64,000 nt of DNA from an uncultured Alphaproteobacteria bacterium. Its GTDB lineage: Bacteria; Pseudomonadota; Alphaproteobacteria; Rhodobacterales; Rhodobacteraceae. The stretch spans positions 1 to 64,000 of the forward strand of contig CACKLF010000005.1 of assembly GCA_902600895.1 (NCBI GenBank). The letters are read 5' to 3'. The notes under the pieces were generated by a model. That model searched no databases. It saw only the letters and a program-made list of their open reading frames with translations, and had not been told where the DNA came from. The position numbers and the translations under genes are program-made. Below, in pieces: positions 5,014 through 53,819 of the stretch (positions are counted from its first letter, which is position 1; the number at the start of each line of letters is the position of its first letter).

Positions 5014-6954
5014 TTAGCTATTCACTCTATTCTGTATTAAACTTTCTACTACTGTTGGGTCAGCTAAAGTTGAGGTATCACCGAGTTCATCAACCTGATC
5101 TTCAGCTATTTTTCTTAATATACGGCGCATTATCTTACCTGATCGAGTTTTTGGTAACCCTGGCGCCCACTGTATTTTATCCGGCTTTGCAATCGGTCCA
5201 ATTTCTTGAGCAACCCAATTTTTTAGCTCATTTTTTAATTCTTCAGAAGGATCTTTTCCTGCCATTAAAGTCACAAACGCATAAATGGCCTGACCCTTAA
5301 TCTGATGCGGAGAACCCACAACTGCACTCTCTGCAACAGATGGGTGTGATACAAGTGCACTTTCCACTTCCGCTGTTCCCATTCGATGCCCTGAGACATT
5401 CAACACATCATCCACTCTACCCGTAATCCAGTAATATCCATCTTTATCCCTTCTACAACCATCACCAGTAAAATAGAACCCAGGATAATCTTTGAAGTAT
5501 GTGTTAATGAACCTTTCGTGATCACCAAACACTGTTCTCATTTGACCAGGCCAACTATCTCTAATAGCCAATACGCCTTCACACTCAGTTTCTTCAAATA
5601 CTTGCCCCGTACTCGGATCAATAATAACAGGATCTATACCAAAAAAGGGCAAAGTGGCAGACCCAGGTTTGGTAGCCGTGATACCGGGAATTGGGGAAAT
5701 TAATATACCACCTGTTTCAGTTTGCCACCAAGTATCAACAATAGGGCACACTCCTTTACCCACCACCCTATTATACCACTCCCAAGCCTCTGGATTAATG
5801 GGCTCTCCCACCGAACCAAGTAGGCGCAACTTTGACAAATTTGATTTTTCGACAAAATTATCACCTAAACCCATTAATGCTCTTATAGCTGTTGGTGCAG
5901 TATAAAATTGAGATACCCCATATCTCTCACATATTTGCCAAAATCTTGAAGCATCAGGATAGGTTGGAATGCCCTCAAACATAATTGTTTTGGCTCCATT
6001 TGATAACGGACCATAAACTATATAGCTATGTCCTGTTACCCACCCGACATCAGCAGTACACCAATAAACATCACCCTCTTTATAGTCAAAAATATATTTG
6101 TGAGTCAAAGATGCATAGAGAAGATAACCAGCCGAAGAATGCTGGACACCCTTCGGTTTTCCTGTCGAACCAGAGGTATAGAGAATGAATAACGGATCTT
6201 CAGCATTCATAGGTTCCGGAGGGCAGTCTGCAGAACAATTTTGTAAAAGCTCATCATAATCATAATCTCTACCCTCAAACATTGATACTGTAGCACCTGT
6301 GCGGGGCACGACAATTGTCTTTAAAGTTGTAAGATCAGCAAGTGCCTGATCAACATTTGACTTAAGGGAAGTTATTTTACCTCCTCTTGGAGCCTCATCA
6401 GCTGTAATGACAAGCGAGGCTTCACAGTCTAAAATTCGTGCTCTAAGAGCTTCCGGACTAAATCCAGCAAACACAACTGAGTGAATCGCACCTATTCGGG
6501 CAGAAGCTAACATTGCATAAGTTGCTTCAGGTATCATTGGCATATAAATTATGACTCTATCCCCTTTTTTTACTCCCAATGACTTATAAGCATTAGCTAA
6601 TTTAGATACATTCTGGTGCATTTCGTTATAGGTTATGTACTTGCTTTCTGTGGGTTCATCACCTTCCCAAATTATCGCCACCTCATCTCCCTTGTCTGCA
6701 AGATGCCTATCCACACAATTTTCACATACATTTAAAACGCCGTCCTCAAACCATTTGATGGATATATTGGGAAACGAATAGCTGACATTTTTGACTTTTG
6801 AGTAAGGTTCTATCCAATCCAATCTTTCACCCTGCTCCTTCCAAAAGCTATCAGGGTCTTTTCTGGAAAGGCTTAGCATAGATAAATATTCATCTTCCTT
6901 TATTACCGCGCTGTTAGCAAAGCTTGCCGACGGAGGATAGATTTTTTTACTCAT
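5014..6954 (-). CDS. acs: Acetyl-CoA synthetase (AMP-forming)
   Basis: Activates acetate to acetyl-CoA through acetyl-AMP in the cytoplasm. The 646-residue length matches the family (about 650). The AMP-binding P-loop [17 protein letters not shown] is near residue 265, the TWWQTETGG motif near 413, and the [20 protein letters not shown] core follows. The C-terminal [15 protein letters not shown] contains the Lys that is acetylated and catalytic in this family (second Lys of the motif). It lies in a minus-strand run after the aminotransferase gene (23 bp gap) and directly before the I78-like gene. Acetate activation would feed the TCA genes elsewhere in the window. Confidence 0.97.
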
Positions 6955-35594: not shown

Positions 35595-36509
35595 ATGCAA
35601 ATTTACCTGCCTATAGCTGAAGTATCCGTCAACATTTTTTTATTGATAGGCTTAGGTGGTTTAGTTGGAATATTATCTGGCCTTTTTGGGGTTGGAGGTG
35701 GCTTTCTAATGACGCCACTTTTGTTTTTTATTGGTATCCCCCCTGCTGTGGCAGTAGCCACTGAAGCAAATCAAATTGTAGCATCATCTTTTTCTGGTGC
35801 CCTTGCACATTTTCGACGAAGAACAATAGACATAAAAATGGGTTGGTTTCTCGTAGCAGGAGGGCTAATTGGTTCAGCATTTGGTGTGCAAATATTCAAA
35901 ATATTGAGGGATATTGGACAAGTAGACCTTTTGGTGAAGCTCTGTTACGTAATTTTTTTAGGAATTATTGGCTCACTTATGCTTTGGGAAAGTATTCGTG
36001 CTTTAGTTAGATCCAGTAAAAAGAATCGACATATTAGAATAAGGCGTCACAACTGGGTTCATCGTTTACCTTTGAAAGTACGTTTCAGAGCTTCAAACTT
36101 GTACATTAGCTGCATACCTCCGTTCATTATTGGAGTAATTGTAGGCTTTTTAGCGGCGATAATGGGAGTAGGTGGAGGATTTATTTTGGTTCCAGTAATG
36201 ATCTATATTATCGGTATGCCTACAAAAGTAGTAATAGGCACATCACTTTTCCAAATCATTTTTGTAACTGGCTTTACTACCCTACTACATTCAACTCAAA
36301 ATTATAGCGTTGATGCCCTACTAGCTCTGATATTATTAATTGGGGGAGTGGTCGGTGCACAAATTGGAACTCGGCTTGGGGTTTATCTGAAAGCTGAGCA
36401 ACTTCGAATTCTGTTAGCATTACTCGTTTTAGTTGTTTGTGTGAAACTCGGACTTGAGTTACTGTTAATGCCTGAAGAACTCTTTTCATTACAAGAGATA
36501 ACAAGATGA
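35595..36509 (+). CDS. TauE/SafE-family membrane permease
   Basis: A 304-residue membrane protein with two homologous halves of about four helices. Each has the glycine-rich family motif: GILSGLFGVGGGFLMTPLL in the first and GFLAAIMGVGGGFILVPVMI in the second. Members export sulfite, sulfonates or organic anions. An Arg/Lys-rich cytoplasmic loop (SSKKNRHIRIRRHNWVHR) separates the halves. Its stop overlaps the next gene as ATGA. The pairing with an Alph_Pro_TM protein is recurrent in alphaproteobacteria and suggests a working complex. Confidence 0.88.
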   Translation: MQIYLPIAEVSVNIFLLIGLGGLVGILSGLFGVGGGFLMTPLLFFIGIPPAVAVATEANQIVASSFSGALAHFRRRTIDIKMGWFLVAGGLIGSAFGVQIFKILRDIGQVDLLVKLCYVIFLGIIGSLMLWESIRALVRSSKKNRHIRIRRHNWVHRLPLKVRFRASNLYISCIPPFIIGVIVGFLAAIMGVGGGFILVPVMIYIIGMPTKVVIGTSLFQIIFVTGFTTLLHSTQNYSVDALLALILLIGGVVGAQIGTRLGVYLKAEQLRILLALLVLVVCVKLGLELLLMPEELFSLQEITR

Positions 36510-37273
36510 TAAGGAGCTGTTTGACAATCATAATGCTCTTATTTTTAGGTGCCAAAAATGCCTATGCCGAAGAAAGTTCTAACAAATTAGTATCTGATCT
36601 GGAAAATAAAGTTATTGATATTACCTCAAACTTTGATGGCTCCGAATTATTTATTTTTGGTGCAAGTAGAAATCCTGTGAACCAAGTCAGTGACACTAAA
36701 AGAGGTATTATCATAGAAGTGATTGGGACCACTAAAAGCCGGATAGTTCGAAAGAAAGAAAAAAAATTTGGTATTTGGGTAAATGGCACCAAAGAAGTTT
36801 TAGCAGGTGTTCCTGATTTCTATCACATAACAAGTACAAGAGAGATTAACGAACTTTTAACTGCCTCTAATCAACAAAATAATGCTATCGGAATTATTAA
36901 TCACCTGCAAAAAGAAAATAGCCACGTTAATCATGATATTTTAAATGCTTTGATTAAAATAAAGGAGCAAAAAAACCTTTACCAATTTAATGAGGGTACA
37001 TTGGAGTTGAAAGAAAACATGTTATTTTCAACCAAAGTTTCATTACCTAACAATATCGCCGAAGGTTTTTATATTATAAAAACCCATTTAACTGCTAGAA
37101 ATAAAGTGATAGATGTAACAAAACAACTTTTGGTCGTCAAAAAGGTCGGTATAGGTAACTTTTTGTTTAACATGGCTCACAACTCTCCATTCACATACGG
37201 AATTTTTTCTATACTTGTTGCCCTTATCTCTGGTTGGGCTGCATCTGAAGTTTTCAGAAGACTTCGAGGATAA
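36506..37273 (+). CDS. Alph_Pro_TM (TIGR02186) family membrane-anchored protein
   Basis: A 255-residue protein with an N-terminal signal sequence (SCLTIIMLLFLGAKNAYA), a periplasmic beta-rich body and one C-terminal transmembrane helix (YGIFSILVALISGWAA). The family core is visible: FDGSELFIFGASRNP, KEKKFGIWVNGTKEVLAGVP and DFYHITSTREINELL. The family has no known biochemical role. It is translationally coupled to the TauE/SafE permease (ATGA), so it is probably an accessory subunit of that transporter. Confidence 0.82.
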   Translation: MIRSCLTIIMLLFLGAKNAYAEESSNKLVSDLENKVIDITSNFDGSELFIFGASRNPVNQVSDTKRGIIIEVIGTTKSRIVRKKEKKFGIWVNGTKEVLAGVPDFYHITSTREINELLTASNQQNNAIGIINHLQKENSHVNHDILNALIKIKEQKNLYQFNEGTLELKENMLFSTKVSLPNNIAEGFYIIKTHLTARNKVIDVTKQLLVVKKVGIGNFLFNMAHNSPFTYGIFSILVALISGWAASEVFRRLRG

Positions 37274-37525
37274 CTTATACTAAAAGCTTCACCCAATCAC
37301 ATAGTACAATGTAAGAAGTCCTATACGTTGCCGAGATACAAAAACCACCATACTTCCTGGTTTGTGCTGATGTTTTGTATTTTCACGTCCGAAGCAGGAA
37401 TTTGTTCCCATGAAAAAACCAAAGACATACAAGATTCCAGGGGTCACTCAACCAGTAACTGATTTGAATCACTTACCCATAAAAGAATTTTAAATCAATA
37501 ACCTTAAGCCTCTTTTAATTCCTCC
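37274..37525. other. Non-coding stretch with no recognised feature
   Basis: Part of the longest gene-free gap in the window (37274-37752). I see no tRNA, clear promoter or strong terminator. Short stop-ridden frames such as the one opening at 37410 (MKKPKTYKIPGVTQPVTDLN) look like possible coding debris, but I cannot assign them. The right half of the gap holds the mutase fragment listed next; 37691-37752 shows nothing. Confidence 0.6.
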
Positions 37526-37690
37526 AGAGATATCTGGTATCTAGGGTCAGGTCATATGGATTTGATGAGAGAATTTGCTAAGGAATTAAAACATTATTAG
37601 ATGGAAAATGTCACTTTAATCGTTGGAGGTATTATTCCCGAGAATGATATTCCAAAACAAACGGAGTTGGGAGTAAATTTATGCCCTTAA
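37526..37690 (+). pseudogene. Decayed B12-binding-domain fragment of an acyl-CoA mutase (ecm/mcm type)
   Basis: Read in one frame, this stretch gives GSGHMDLMREFAKELKHY, a TAG stop at 37598-37600, then MENVTLIVGGIIPENDIPKQ and ELGVNLCP before a TAA. The order and spacing of the SGH motif, the amphipathic helix, VVGGIIPxxD and xxxGV match the end of the cobalamin-binding domain of methylmalonyl- or ethylmalonyl-CoA mutases. The normal following YTP/FGPGT segment is lost. Only about 50 codons remain, with an internal stop and no upstream domain, so it is a remnant. VGGIIP (two Ile) suggests the ethylmalonyl type, but this is weak. Confidence 0.62.
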
Positions 37691-37752: not shown

Positions 37753-38535
37753 TTATGCTCGTTTCCTATCGACCATCATTTTCTTTATTTCTGCTATAGC
37801 TTTTGCTGGGTTTAAGTCTTTTGGACACGTTTTTGTACAATTCATAATGGTATGACATCTGTATAATTTAAATGAATCTTCTAAAGCATCTAATCTCTCA
37901 TCTTTATCTTCATCCCTGCTATCAATGATCCATCGGTATGCATGCAGTAATGCTGCTGGCCCAAGATATTCATCTCCATTCCACCAGTAGCTTGGGCACG
38001 ATGTTGAACAGGATGCGCACATTACACACTCATATAACCCATCAAGTTTCTTACGATCTTCTATAGACTGTTTCCACTCTTTTTCGGGTGTTTTTGATTT
38101 TGTTTCTAACCAGGGCATAATACTGGCATGCTGTGCATAAAACTGGGTCAAATCTGGCACTAAATCTTTTACTACACGACAGTGTGGCAATGGATAAATT
38201 TTTACGTCGCCCTTAATCTTATCCAACCCATAGGTGCAGGCCAACGTATTTATTCCATCGATGTTCATGGAACAAGAACCACATATTCCCTCCCTACAGG
38301 AACGCCGGAATGTTAAAGAGGGATCAATCTCATTTTTTATTTTAATAATGGCGTCTAATACCATAGGTCCACAGGTGTCAAGATCCACATAATACGTATC
38401 CCTGCTTGGATTCTCACCAGTTTCTGGGTTATACCGATAAATATGAAATACCTTCAGATTTGTGACTTTTTCAGGTTTTGGCCACACTTTTCCTTGAGTT
38501 ATCTGTGAGTTTTTTGGGAGCCGGAATTCTGCCAC
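37753..38535 (-). CDS. sdhB: Succinate dehydrogenase iron-sulfur subunit
   Basis: The electron-transfer subunit of complex II, 260 residues. The [2Fe-2S] ligands are in [21 protein letters not shown] (about residues 60-80; the first Cys opens the motif). The [4Fe-4S] and [3Fe-4S] ligands are in [16 protein letters not shown] and [17 protein letters not shown]. The start is a GTG at 38535 with GAGGAAAA about 7 bases upstream. It is the last gene of the minus-strand operon mcl2-mch-sdhC-sdhD-sdhA-lipoprotein-sdhB. Confidence 0.97.
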
Positions 38536-38547
38536 TGAAATTTTCCT

Positions 38548-38826
38548 CTATACTTTTTTGATTCTAGAACTTAGCTGGAACATGCAGTCTAAATAGACAC
38601 TATTTGGATCTTTGCCAACCAAATAATCACTATGAAAATTAAGCTTTACACCAGCCGAAGAGCCCCTAGATCCTGTTGAAAATGAAATAGCACCCGTTGG
38701 TCCTTCTGCAGATCTTTTTTTACCGAGACAAATTTTTTGAGCCTCAGCGTTTGTAATCAAATTATCACTAGTTCCAACACAGCTAATTAATATCATCAAC
38801 AAGCCTAAAGTTACAATAGCTTTCAT
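38548..38826 (-). CDS. Small putative lipoprotein between sdhA and sdhB
   Basis: A 92-residue protein. A short N-terminal helix ends in a lipobox (LGLLMILISC), so it is probably a lipoprotein. The body has NAEAQKICLGKKR, a Gly/Ser-rich FSTGSRGSSAGVKLNFHSDYL and a second Cys pair-like position (LDCMFQL). I do not recognise a family. It is tightly packed, 4 bp after sdhA and 12 bp before sdhB. A small gene at this place occurs in other Rhodobacterales sdh operons as I recall, so a complex II-related role is possible but unproven. Confidence 0.75.
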   Translation of the reverse strand: MKAIVTLGLLMILISCVGTSDNLITNAEAQKICLGKKRSAEGPTGAISFSTGSRGSSAGVKLNFHSDYLVGKDPNSVYLDCMFQLSSRIKKV

Positions 38827-41435: not shown

Positions 41436-42476
41436 TTAGTAGGGAATAGAAGCCCAGTAATCCAAATCTAAAACAATATTGCTATTGTAATTTTCATTAT
41501 CGTCTTTTATTTCAAAAGTTTCAACCTTTCCTTTAGAGGCAATTAATCGCAACCGTAGTAGGCCATAATTAGGCAGATCCGTTTTATACTTATCTAAAAC
41601 TTCGCTCCAAAAATAAAGAGTATCTCCCGAAAAACATGGATTAGCATGAGTTCCTGAATTTATTGCATTGATCACTTGTGCGTTGGCTAACCCATTAAAG
41701 CTATAAGCCCTAGCCATAGAAATTATGTGACCACCATATATTAATCTCTTACCATCTCTTCTTTCATTCACATTGAAATGAACCAGAGAAGTATTCTGCC
41801 AAAGTCTAGTAATTAGGATATGTTCTGACTCATCTAGAGTTATACCACCACCATGGACAATTTTTTCACCTATAGTATAGTCATTTAATGTGAAATTTTC
41901 TCCAGAAAGGTGATAATCAAACTTATCAAACTTCAATGTGCTATTGGTTGGCACGTCCTTTGCTGAAAGGCAGTCTTTAAAAGATGGAATAATAGCCTTT
42001 TTACCCAACAATTTACTGCTACTCTTTCTCACCATAACCCATCTTATAAATTTAATAATTAGTTCATTTTTTTGATTAAAGCCTTTGGTCTCAACGTAAA
42101 CTATGCCTGATTTACCATTAGAGTTTTCTTTTAGACCAATTACTTTTGACTCTGCTGTTATGGTATCACCTGGAAAAACAGGATCAAAAAATTTGACTTC
42201 GGCATACCCTAGGTTTGCAATTGCATTAAATGAAATATCAGGTACAGTTCTTCCAAAAACCATATGAAATACTGCAAGGTCCTCTAAAGGAAAGCCTTGA
42301 AAGCCAATTTTTTTTGCAAATTGAGACGAGCAATATGAAGCAAATCGACTGGAATATACACTTATATATAAAGACCGGTCACCATCAGTCATTGTTCGCG
42401 GTGTAGAATGATAAATAGCGTCACCTAGTTGAAAATCTTCGAAAAATCTTCCTTTATTGCTTTTTTCTTGTGTCAC
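41436..42476 (-). CDS. mch: Mesaconyl-CoA (2-methylfumaryl-CoA) hydratase, double MaoC domain
   Basis: Hydrates mesaconyl-CoA to beta-methylmalyl-CoA in the ethylmalonyl-CoA pathway. The 346 residues have two hot-dog/MaoC halves. KGRFFEDFQLGDAIYHSTPR, FGRTVPDISFNAIANLGYAE and VIGLKENSNGKSGIVYVET match the Rhodobacter Mch sequence as I remember it, as do LIYGGHIISMARAYSFNGLA and INSGTHANPCFSGDTLYFWS. The start is a GTG at 42476. It lies between mcl2 (50 bp) and sdhC (14 bp), the order found in Rhodobacter sphaeroides. Confidence 0.9.
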   Translation of the reverse strand: MTQEKSNKGRFFEDFQLGDAIYHSTPRTMTDGDRSLYISVYSSRFASYCSSQFAKKIGFQGFPLEDLAVFHMVFGRTVPDISFNAIANLGYAEVKFFDPVFPGDTITAESKVIGLKENSNGKSGIVYVETKGFNQKNELIIKFIRWVMVRKSSSKLLGKKAIIPSFKDCLSAKDVPTNSTLKFDKFDYHLSGENFTLNDYTIGEKIVHGGGITLDESEHILITRLWQNTSLVHFNVNERRDGKRLIYGGHIISMARAYSFNGLANAQVINAINSGTHANPCFSGDTLYFWSEVLDKYKTDLPNYGLLRLRLIASKGKVETFEIKDDNENYNSNIVLDLDYWASIPY

Positions 42477-42526: not shown

Positions 42527-43402
42527 TTAATTGTTTCTCTTTTTTATGAGTTTAGCTCTGGCTAATAAATCTAAAGCCATTTCCAAATGAAGATTTTCAA
42601 CTATTTTGCCATTTAAAACTGCTATCCCAGAGCCAGATTGCTTTGCCTCATTAAAGGCATTAACCTGCATCTTAGCATTTTCGATCTCCTCATTAGTTGG
42701 GGAAAAGGCTTCATTTGCAACTTTGATTTGGGATGGGTGAATAAGTGTCTTTCCATCGAACCCAAATCGCTTTGCTTGGTTGCACTCTTCCTGAAAACCT
42801 AACAGATCATTAAATTTGTTATATACCCCATCTAAACATAATATGCCATGAGCCTTTGCAAAAATATTCGTTATGCTTAGTGCGGTTCCAATGGCTTGTC
42901 TATCTACGTCATTGGCGATATTAAGCTCTTTTGCTAAATCATTTGTGCCCATCACGAACGCTTCTAAATTCTCTGTAGTAGTTGCAATGTCTTTAATATT
43001 TACCAAAGAAGCAGACGTTTCTATCATTACCCAGATTTTAATGCCAGGTTCTATGTCACACTTTATCATGTCTAAATACTTTTTGGAGTCACCCGCATAA
43101 CTTATCTTTGGTAAAAGTATTGCGTGTGGAGCCATTTCAACTGCGGCAATAAAGTCATCTTTTCCCCAAACTGTGTCCCAAGAATTCACCCGCACAATTA
43201 ATTTTTTATTACCGTAGGCATGTCTGTCTTTGGTAAGGTATTTTCTGACAATAATCCTTGCTTCATCTTTCTTATAAGAGCTAACTGCGTCCTCCAAGTC
43301 GAAAATCAAACCATCGCAGTCAAGTTCTTTTGCTTTTTCCAAAGCCTTGGTGTTCGACCCTGGCATAAATAATATACTTCTGAAAAGTTCCGATTTCTTC
43401 AT
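42527..43402 (-). CDS. mcl2: CitE-like CoA-ester lyase/thioesterase, probable (3S)-malyl-CoA thioesterase
   Basis: An HpcH/HpaI-CitE family TIM-barrel protein of 291 residues. RSILFMPGSNTKALEKA, LIFDLEDAV, RVNSWDTVWGKDD, the metal-ligand Glu in MIETSASL and the Asp in MGTNDLAKEL are visible. By sequence style and by position between mdh and mch it corresponds to Rhodobacter Mcl2, which hydrolyses (3S)-malyl-CoA to malate, more than to the longer Mcl1 lyase. Lyase activity on beta-methylmalyl-CoA cannot be excluded. I start at the ATG at 43402, with GGAAG 5-9 bases upstream. The TTG at 43414 also in frame coincides with that site. Confidence 0.75.
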   Translation of the reverse strand: MKKSELFRSILFMPGSNTKALEKAKELDCDGLIFDLEDAVSSYKKDEARIIVRKYLTKDRHAYGNKKLIVRVNSWDTVWGKDDFIAAVEMAPHAILLPKISYAGDSKKYLDMIKCDIEPGIKIWVMIETSASLVNIKDIATTTENLEAFVMGTNDLAKELNIANDVDRQAIGTALSITNIFAKAHGILCLDGVYNKFNDLLGFQEECNQAKRFGFDGKTLIHPSQIKVANEAFSPTNEEIENAKMQVNAFNEAKQSGSGIAVLNGKIVENLHLEMALDLLARAKLIKKRNN

Positions 43403-43482
43403 AATTACTTCCAAGCAAACCCTAGAGGAAAATAAATTTCTTTTTATAATGTCTTGACGTTATTTCTTTAACTTAAGCCCAA

Positions 43483-51786: not shown

Positions 51787-53175
51787 ATGTCTGAATACGA
51801 TGTTATAGTGATTGGGAGTGGACCAGGCGGTTACGTAGCAGCCATTAAATCTGCACAGTTAGGGTTAAAAGTAGCTTGTATTGAATCAAGATCTTCCTTA
51901 GGAGGGACATGTCTTAATGTAGGCTGCATACCTTCAAAAGCCTTACTATATTCTTCTGAAAAGTATTCTGAAAGTATTAACAAATTTTCCAAAATGGGAA
52001 TACATATACCCAAACCATCTTTTGATTGGTCAAAGATGTTAGACTACAAACAGTCAATGATAGATCAAAACACGAAAGGTATTTCGTATTTATTTAAAAA
52101 AAATAATATTGATTGCATTATAGGAACGGGAAAAATAAAGAACAAAAATGAAGTGCAAGTAAACGACCAGTCCCTAAAAACAAAAAATATCATAATTGCC
52201 ACTGGCTCTGAACCGTCAGCTCTTGGTAAAATCAAATTTGATGAAAAAAGAATTGTAAGCTCAACTGGTATTTTAGAATTAGAAAAGGTTCCCAAAAAAC
52301 TTACAATAGTAGGTGCTGGAGTAATTGGCATCGAAATGGGATCCGTTTTTTCCCGTTTAGGATCAGAGGTCACAATAATCGAATATCTTAATCAGATCGT
52401 ACCTGGTTTTGACTTAGAAATATCAAAATCTTTTCAGAAAATTTTAAAAAGACAAGGCCTTAAATTTATCCTTGGGGCTTCTGTCCATAACGTAAACAAG
52501 GTTAAAAATGGACTTTCATTAACGTACCAAGAAAATAATAATGACGTTGAAAAAAGTATACACAGTTGCATCACTCTAATTTCAACTGGTAGAAAAGCTT
52601 ACACGCAAGGATTAGGACTCAATGAGGTTTCAATAAGAATGTCAGATAATGGTAAAATTAAAATAAATGAAAATTGGCAAACAAACATTGAAAATGTATT
52701 CGCAATTGGTGATGTTGTAGATGGACCTATGCTAGCTCACAAAGCTGAAGACGAGGGAATAGCTGTGGCTGAGATAATTGCAGGTCAAGCTGGACATGTT
52801 AACTATAATCTTATTCCTAGTGTAATTTATTCATCTCCCGAAGTTGCTTGCGTGGGAAAAACAGAAGAAAATTTAAAAGAAGAAAAAATAGATTATAAAA
52901 TAGGAAAATTTTCATTCCTTGGAAATGGAAGAGCAAAAACTAGTTTTGCGTCGGATGGTTTAGTAAAAATATTAAGTCATAAAACAACAGATCGCATCTT
53001 AGGCGCCCATATAATTGGACCATCAGCAGGCGACTTAATTCATGAAATTTGTTTGGCAATGGAATTTGGAGCAAGCGCCGAAGATATAGCTAGAACATGT
53101 CATGCACATCCTACCTATTCCGAAGCGATCAGAGAAGCAGCCTTAGCATGTGGTGACGGTCCAATACACTCCTAA
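51787..53175 (+). CDS. lpd: Dihydrolipoyl dehydrogenase (E3)
   Basis: Reoxidises lipoyl groups with NAD. The 462 residues contain the FAD-binding VIVIGSGPGGYVAAIKSAQLG (in part), the redox-active disulfide C42/C47 in GGTCLNVGCIPSKALL, the NAD-binding VGAGVIGIEMGSVFSRLG, and the catalytic His441/Glu446 in HAHPTYSEA. It ends the mdh-suc run. Its stop overlaps the end of the convergent GntR gene by 4 bp. Confidence 0.97.
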   Translation: MSEYDVIVIGSGPGGYVAAIKSAQLGLKVACIESRSSLGGTCLNVGCIPSKALLYSSEKYSESINKFSKMGIHIPKPSFDWSKMLDYKQSMIDQNTKGISYLFKKNNIDCIIGTGKIKNKNEVQVNDQSLKTKNIIIATGSEPSALGKIKFDEKRIVSSTGILELEKVPKKLTIVGAGVIGIEMGSVFSRLGSEVTIIEYLNQIVPGFDLEISKSFQKILKRQGLKFILGASVHNVNKVKNGLSLTYQENNNDVEKSIHSCITLISTGRKAYTQGLGLNEVSIRMSDNGKIKINENWQTNIENVFAIGDVVDGPMLAHKAEDEGIAVAEIIAGQAGHVNYNLIPSVIYSSPEVACVGKTEENLKEEKIDYKIGKFSFLGNGRAKTSFASDGLVKILSHKTTDRILGAHIIGPSAGDLIHEICLAMEFGASAEDIARTCHAHPTYSEAIREAALACGDGPIHS

Positions 53176-53819
53176 AATAAAAGAAATAAGTTTTCACATA
53201 TAGATACATCTTTATCAATAAGTATACTTAAGTCTTCTGAGTCCTTTTTTTTGAGAGCTTTGAGTATATAATCGTGTTCATTTTTATCTAGCAAGTTCCA
53301 ATTTTCTGAAAGGCCAAACCTAATTGTGGGACTTAGCTGCAGCCACACTGTCTCGAGAATTGATAGCATGACTGGGGATTGAGCTCTGAGGTATAAGGTT
53401 CTATGAAATTCCATGTTTGCACCAATATATAAGCTAGCTTCGCGTGATTTGGCAAAAAATTCCATTTTCCCATTTATTAATTCTAACCTATCAATAAGCG
53501 CTTTATGAGCTCGTGGCATTGCTTTAACTGCTAGCTCAGTTTCAATAATTTTTCGAAGCCGTATTAATTCATTAAACTTATCTGAATTTAGAGTTGGTAT
53601 CGATATTCTACCAGACACAGATAACTTAAGTGCACCCTCTGACCACAACCTACGAACTGACTCCCGTACAGGCATCACACTAGTAGAAAATTCAGATGCT
53701 AAACCCCTCAAAGTCAAGACATCACCCGGTCGTAAAAATCCATATAGAATATTGTCGCGAAGTTTCTTATAAACTTCATCATGTACAAGAGAATTACTAT
53801 CTTTTTTTCTTACTATCAT
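53172..53819 (-). CDS. GntR-family transcriptional regulator with FCD ligand domain
   Basis: A 215-residue regulator. The N-terminal winged helix-turn-helix has the recognition region SVMPVRESVRRLWSEGAL (about residues 47-64). The C-terminal all-helical FCD domain has EFHRTLYLRAQSPVMLSIL and NEHDYILKALKKKD, whose His residues are likely metal or ligand contacts. FCD regulators usually sense small organic acids (for example PdhR-pyruvate, LldR-lactate, GlcC-glycolate). It is convergent with lpd. A TGTGATCACA palindrome lies 10 bp before its ATG, and two versions lie before sucC, so it probably regulates itself and the suc operon. Confidence 0.88.
   Translation of the reverse strand: MIVRKKDSNSLVHDEVYKKLRDNILYGFLRPGDVLTLRGLASEFSTSVMPVRESVRRLWSEGALKLSVSGRISIPTLNSDKFNELIRLRKIIETELAVKAMPRAHKALIDRLELINGKMEFFAKSREASLYIGANMEFHRTLYLRAQSPVMLSILETVWLQLSPTIRFGLSENWNLLDKNEHDYILKALKKKDSEDLSILIDKDVSICENLFLLF

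Follow-up and report, generated by a model that had tools for sequence, protein, structure and literature searches.

What once stood in the short gap beside sdhB, and what remains of the pathway that it served, are the questions raised by this locus. The gap measures 480 bp and lies between an intact gene and sdhB in the window (the whole stretch of 64,000 nucleotides that was analysed). The window belongs to a draft genome (G000) assigned by gene content and named relatives to the Rhodobacteraceae/Roseobacteraceae, here called the family, and has been compared with the one same-genus genome available (G001) as well as with other family members. The draft comprises 1.59 Mb in 76 contigs and is 60% complete, so gene absences in it are suggestive only. 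Judged from the sequence comparisons, the gap is almost certainly the scar of one internal deletion in a divergent ccr-ecm gene pair. The features on which this reading is based, together with the other genes discussed, are collected in the table.

Table. Features of the scar, its borders and related genes; positions are those of the window unless a contig is named.
Feature	Position	Strand	Description
Left-border gene, intact	36506..37273	+	Ortholog of the gene beyond ccr in G001 (L014 9803-10639); putative TIGR02186-like
Decayed 3' ccr tail	37316..37556	-	Corresponds to about residues 338-418 of the 429-residue Ccr; broken by two frameshifts and at least three in-frame stops
Decayed 3' ecm tail	37541..37678	+	Corresponds to about residues 583-628 of the 656-residue Ecm; interrupted by a single in-frame TAG
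Deletion junction	37550..37564	.	Range of the best split points when the DNA is aligned to the G001 locus from both sides
sdhB, right border, intact	37753..38535	-	Open reading frame
mch (mesaconyl-CoA hydratase), intact	41436..42476	-	346 aa; synteny, 68% identity to G001
mcl2 (malyl-CoA thioesterase type), intact	42527..43414	-	295 aa; CitE/RipC-type family matches, synteny
GntR-type regulator beyond lpd	53172..53819	-	Putative, read from sequence
mcd (methylsuccinyl-CoA dehydrogenase), intact	G000:C35 (L151 289-1953)		555 aa; full-length match to 6ES9
Second crotonyl-CoA carboxylase/reductase gene	G000:C40 3724-4974 (L134)		416 aa; family score 539 bits, cut-off 378.55

The plus-strand frame of the ecm tail translates as LGSGHMDLMREFAKELKHY, an in-frame TAG and MENVTLIVGGIIPENDIPKQTELGVN. 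With the stop written as X, this fragment is matched by TIGR00640 (E 1.6e-8, model positions 59-107), a model of the methylmalonyl-CoA mutase C-terminal domain by which Ecm is matched as well. The match to the Pfam B12-binding model is weak (E 0.011), and a comparison with solved structures gives methylmalonyl-CoA mutase chains as its top matches, which are also weak. When the 64-kb window is searched by tblastn with the Ecm of G001, the fragment is the sole credible match (E 1e-6, the next being 0.18), and a tblastn search of plasmids with the fragment returns distant mutase matches only. The mutase-tail score of 43.1 bits is reached by none of 1000 dinucleotide-shuffled versions of the gap, the best of which scores 23.5. 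The preliminary description had seen here about 50 codons from the end of a B12-binding domain, broken by a TAG. This holds, with the mutase-homologous part trimmed to ~42-46 codons; the true ecm homology probably begins near 37553, and the LGSG ahead of it probably comes from ccr, translated from the wrong strand.

The fragment has been assigned to ecm on the basis of profile scores and synteny. The Ecm profile, made from 44 C-terminal domains, gives it 31.8-33.5 bits and the Mcm profile, made from 12, gives 20.8; its top single Ecm match is the Ecm of G001, with which it aligns at residues 583-628, a C-terminal stretch of the B12 domain in this adenosylcobalamin-dependent acyl-CoA mutase family. 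Methylmalonyl-CoA mutase has been rejected as the source on account of its lower profile score and of the sister genome G001, which carries ecm, not mcm, in the syntenic place. The fossil of a cobalamin-dependent mutase that had been proposed is thereby supported and narrowed to ecm. The tail is short and 40% identical to G001 Ecm, and the same stretch is variable among intact Ecms too (47% identity between G001 and G020). Unlike a functional Ecm, the fragment has neither the PF01642 catalytic domain (MM_CoA_mutase, with no match at the scar locus) nor the beginning of the B12 domain, whose GLDGH stretch lies upstream of the tail, and it contains the internal stop. About 89% of the gene is gone from the 5' end.

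The fragment had also been described as lacking everything upstream. This is correct for the 5' part of ecm, but the decayed tail of ccr on the opposite strand had been overlooked. A tblastn search of the window with G001 Ccr (crotonyl-CoA carboxylase/reductase) finds three collinear minus-strand pieces in three frames, interrupted by stops, with a joint E of 4e-14, and none of the 1000 shuffles of the gap reaches the best piece. Some 80 codons near the C-terminus can be aligned to G001 Ccr; compared with an intact Ccr, the copy in the scar is mostly gone and carries frameshifts and stops. The tail scores 249 with the ccr of G001, at most 205 with other ccr genes of the family, and 87 with a second ccr found elsewhere in G000. 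By these scores, the remnant derives from the native ccr.

The gene order mcl2, mch, sdhC, second small membrane subunit, sdhA, small gene, sdhB is the same in G001 and in the window. The small gene between sdhA and sdhB (38548-38826, minus strand) encodes 92 aa with a lipoprotein-like start, and its G001 counterpart encodes 93 aa. Beyond sdhB, G001 carries an intact, convergent ecm (656 aa, L014 6370-8340) that overlaps sdhB by 4 bp at the stops, an intact ccr (429 aa) divergent from ecm, and then the ortholog of the left-border gene; no unrelated gene occupies the place. This arrangement, mcl2-mch-sdhA-sdhB followed by a convergent ecm and usually by ccr, is found across the family, in at least 47 of the 80 named loci that have sdhB, many of the remaining loci being incomplete. 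The flanks and orientations of the pair in Roseobacter-type genomes are alike in G000, where the interiors of both genes are deleted.

The sdhB end, which had been taken as an odd position for a mutase, is thus the common place of ecm in the family, and no relocation is needed. Of the two fates that the preliminary description had offered, lost or moved, the first stands, as ecm was lost in place, and ccr was lost as well. Its statement that ccr and ecm lie beyond lpd in the same TCA cluster in Rhodobacter sphaeroides is consistent with the locus tags published for that species (ccr RSP_0960, ecm RSP_0961, mcl-2 RSP_0970, mch RSP_0973; PMC6747724), and the GntR-type gene that it noted beyond lpd is present.

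The DNA alignment to G001 is unbroken from the left-border gene through the ccr tail; near 37557 it switches to the ecm tail, with about 2.9 kb of the G001 locus absent at the junction. The ecm-ccr place takes up 3.4 kb in G001 against the 480 bp in the window, and the expected tail lengths of about 276 and 222 bp fill the whole gap, so that no third gene is needed. Based on the continuous alignment, the single jump and the filled gap, one internal deletion of ~2.9 kb is the simplest history, although this rests on one comparison with one same-genus genome and several smaller deletions could look alike. By the comparison with G001, the ancestor had the divergent pair as it is in that genome, with ccr on the minus strand and ecm on the plus strand. 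The deletion took out the promoter region that the two genes shared, along with ~337 codons from the start of ccr and ~583-586 from the start of ecm. The two 3' tails were thereby joined, and they have since eroded through frameshifts and stops. The scar DNA is presumably functionless, and the ethylmalonyl-CoA pathway would have lost native Ccr and Ecm, two of its signature enzymes, from the ancestral site. Chance similarity or an assembly artefact, suggested by the shortness of the fragment and by the draft state of the genome (76 contigs, 60% complete), is highly improbable, as two independent tails lie on opposite strands in the syntenic place and orientation, each beyond 1000 shuffles, and have accumulated stops and frameshifts not expected of a fresh mis-join.

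Several partner genes of the pathway are still present. The genes mch and mcl2, which had been said to survive, are both intact, and so are mcd and epi (epimerase). The top solved relative of the mcd product, over its full length, is P. denitrificans Mcd 6ES9 (E 1.6e-202), a methylsuccinyl-CoA dehydrogenase (PMC5798300). Of the ethylmalonyl-CoA pathway set, epi, mcd, mch and the divergent second ccr are seen in the 60%-complete assembly; ecm and mcl1 are not found in it, and a candidate mcl1 is present in G001. No PF01642 mutase has been found in the 60%-complete assembly, and isocitrate lyase (PF00463), the enzyme looked for as the sign of a glyoxylate bypass that might act as a substitute, has no match in the assembled 60% of G000 or in the other 36 family genomes searched. 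The only PF02310 protein of the assembly is a free-standing corrinoid (B12-binding) protein of 233 aa (G000:C3 858-1559, L001), and therefore no methionine-synthase B12 domain is seen in the assembled part. This protein has been considered as a moved mutase and rejected, being another type of B12 protein. In a different part of the window, the gene at 5014-6954 (minus strand) appears by eye to encode an acetyl-CoA synthetase; acetate could be activated, though no isocitrate lyase or complete ethylmalonyl-CoA pathway has been found.

The second ccr lies downstream of two genes without an NCBIfam match. It is 54% identical to the ccr of G001 and is placed in a different clade (support 100/100), the other members found belonging to other families of the class and none to the Rhodobacteraceae/Roseobacteraceae. 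A relocated native copy is rejected on these grounds, and the gene is, by its place in the tree, of foreign type. Its product might stand in for the lost Ccr. Neither this gene nor its homologues have a mutase gene as neighbour, and nothing has been found in the literature on a second ccr with DUF1326 or on incomplete pathways.

The neutral divergence since the deletion has been estimated from the ccr tail, in which 20% of the second codon positions differ from G001; two intact ccr genes from the family differ from each other at 8%. Over the 79 codons used for the estimate, the excess is taken to represent neutral change of roughly 0.1 per site after the gene was lost. At this level, ~9 stops would be expected without constraint in mcd, ~5 in mch and ~4 in mcl2. 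Each has none, so all three most likely remained under selection after the deletion. Given the decayed tails, mcd, epi, mch and mcl2 have apparently all been kept in this way. The signals for relaxed selection on mch, mcl2 and mcd are mixed: in the trees, mcl2 and mch have longer branches to G000 than the sdh genes do, but a unique-change test against sdh controls does not confirm this, with no significant acceleration (p 0.27 for mcl2, 0.20 for mch, 0.08 for mcd and 0.06 pooled). Pairwise dN/dS is uninformative since the synonymous sites are saturated.

A mutase is found in 389 of 394 family genomes, nearly all of different genera, and none in G000 and four others (G174, G196, G333 and G335). 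These four represent four genera and have no mch either, and G000 is the odd one, with mch retained and no mutase seen. Retention of mch without a mutase can mean that ecm lies in the unsequenced part of the genome or that the pathway has been caught between loss and decay. Since mch is absent from the other four mutase-less genera, its retention in G000 hints at a mutase that still exists. Three readings of the state of the pathway compete with one another, and none of them with the scar itself. One reading is that, after or around the time of the deletion, the pathway was kept running through the horizontally acquired second ccr and an ecm located in the unsequenced 40%, which is quite possible, though it falls short of being probable. 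A running pathway would keep mcd, epi, mch and mcl2 under selection, in agreement with the intact state of all four, with the missing stops in mcd, mch and mcl2 (about 9, 5 and 4 expected), and with a full-length second ccr on another contig that scores above its family cut-off. On the other hand, the assembled 60% contains no mutase, none lies near the second ccr or its homologues, mcl1 has been found as a candidate in G001 but not in G000, and the second ccr may belong to a different route.

In a second reading, the pathway came to an end with the deletion, and its remaining genes, mcd, epi, mch and mcl2, have not been lost yet, as expected under genome streamlining. According to an extract of PMC12661815, the ethylmalonyl-CoA pathway is missing from two Roseobacter clusters, TCR and AAR, which are likewise streamlined, low-GC members of the family. 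What this extract reports is absence and not relics, whereas G000 retains mcd, epi, mch and mcl2. The lack of mch in the four other mutase-less genera, the failure to find mcl1 in the assembly of G000, and the longer branches of mcl2 and mch relative to those of the sdh genes all agree with an ended pathway. The reading is nevertheless on the unlikely side, as the unique-change test gives no significant acceleration and the reading frames have stayed intact while the tails decayed.

It is less likely still that Mcd, Mch and Mcl2 have been redeployed, for example to degrade methylsuccinate or mesaconate, with glyoxylate and propionyl-CoA as products, independently of Ccr and Ecm. The intact frames of mcd, mch and mcl2 would fit such a use, and the enzymes kept are those of consecutive steps (Mcd, Mch) together with Mcl2, the removed ones acting upstream in the pathway. 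However, no gene for the uptake or CoA activation of such acids has been noticed next to them, mcl1 has not been found, and propionyl-CoA would be unusable by the methylmalonyl route, as the assembled 60% contains no mcm. A related and rather doubtful proposal is that the lineage swapped the entry enzymes of the pathway: the native ccr-ecm pair would have been deleted and selection would have maintained mcd, epi, mch and mcl2, while the work of the lost pair passed to a foreign ccr, assisted by a mutase that is unlinked or of a still unknown kind, unless the remaining steps are used in a way that needs no mutase.

The scar itself is ordinary gene loss, an event of a known type, the exception being that several partner genes of the pathway are intact. 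The retained mch and mcl2 are no proof of a working pathway, and any interest for specialists would lie solely in what has become of the remaining steps. At the level of single bases, the locus documents the dismantling of a central carbon pathway in a marine bacterium with a small genome: a single deletion removed both signature genes of a divergent pair, and the enzymes of the later steps, encoded mostly at other loci, are intact. What the literature gives as presence or absence becomes a case in which partial loss of the pathway, or replacement of its enzymes, can be tested.
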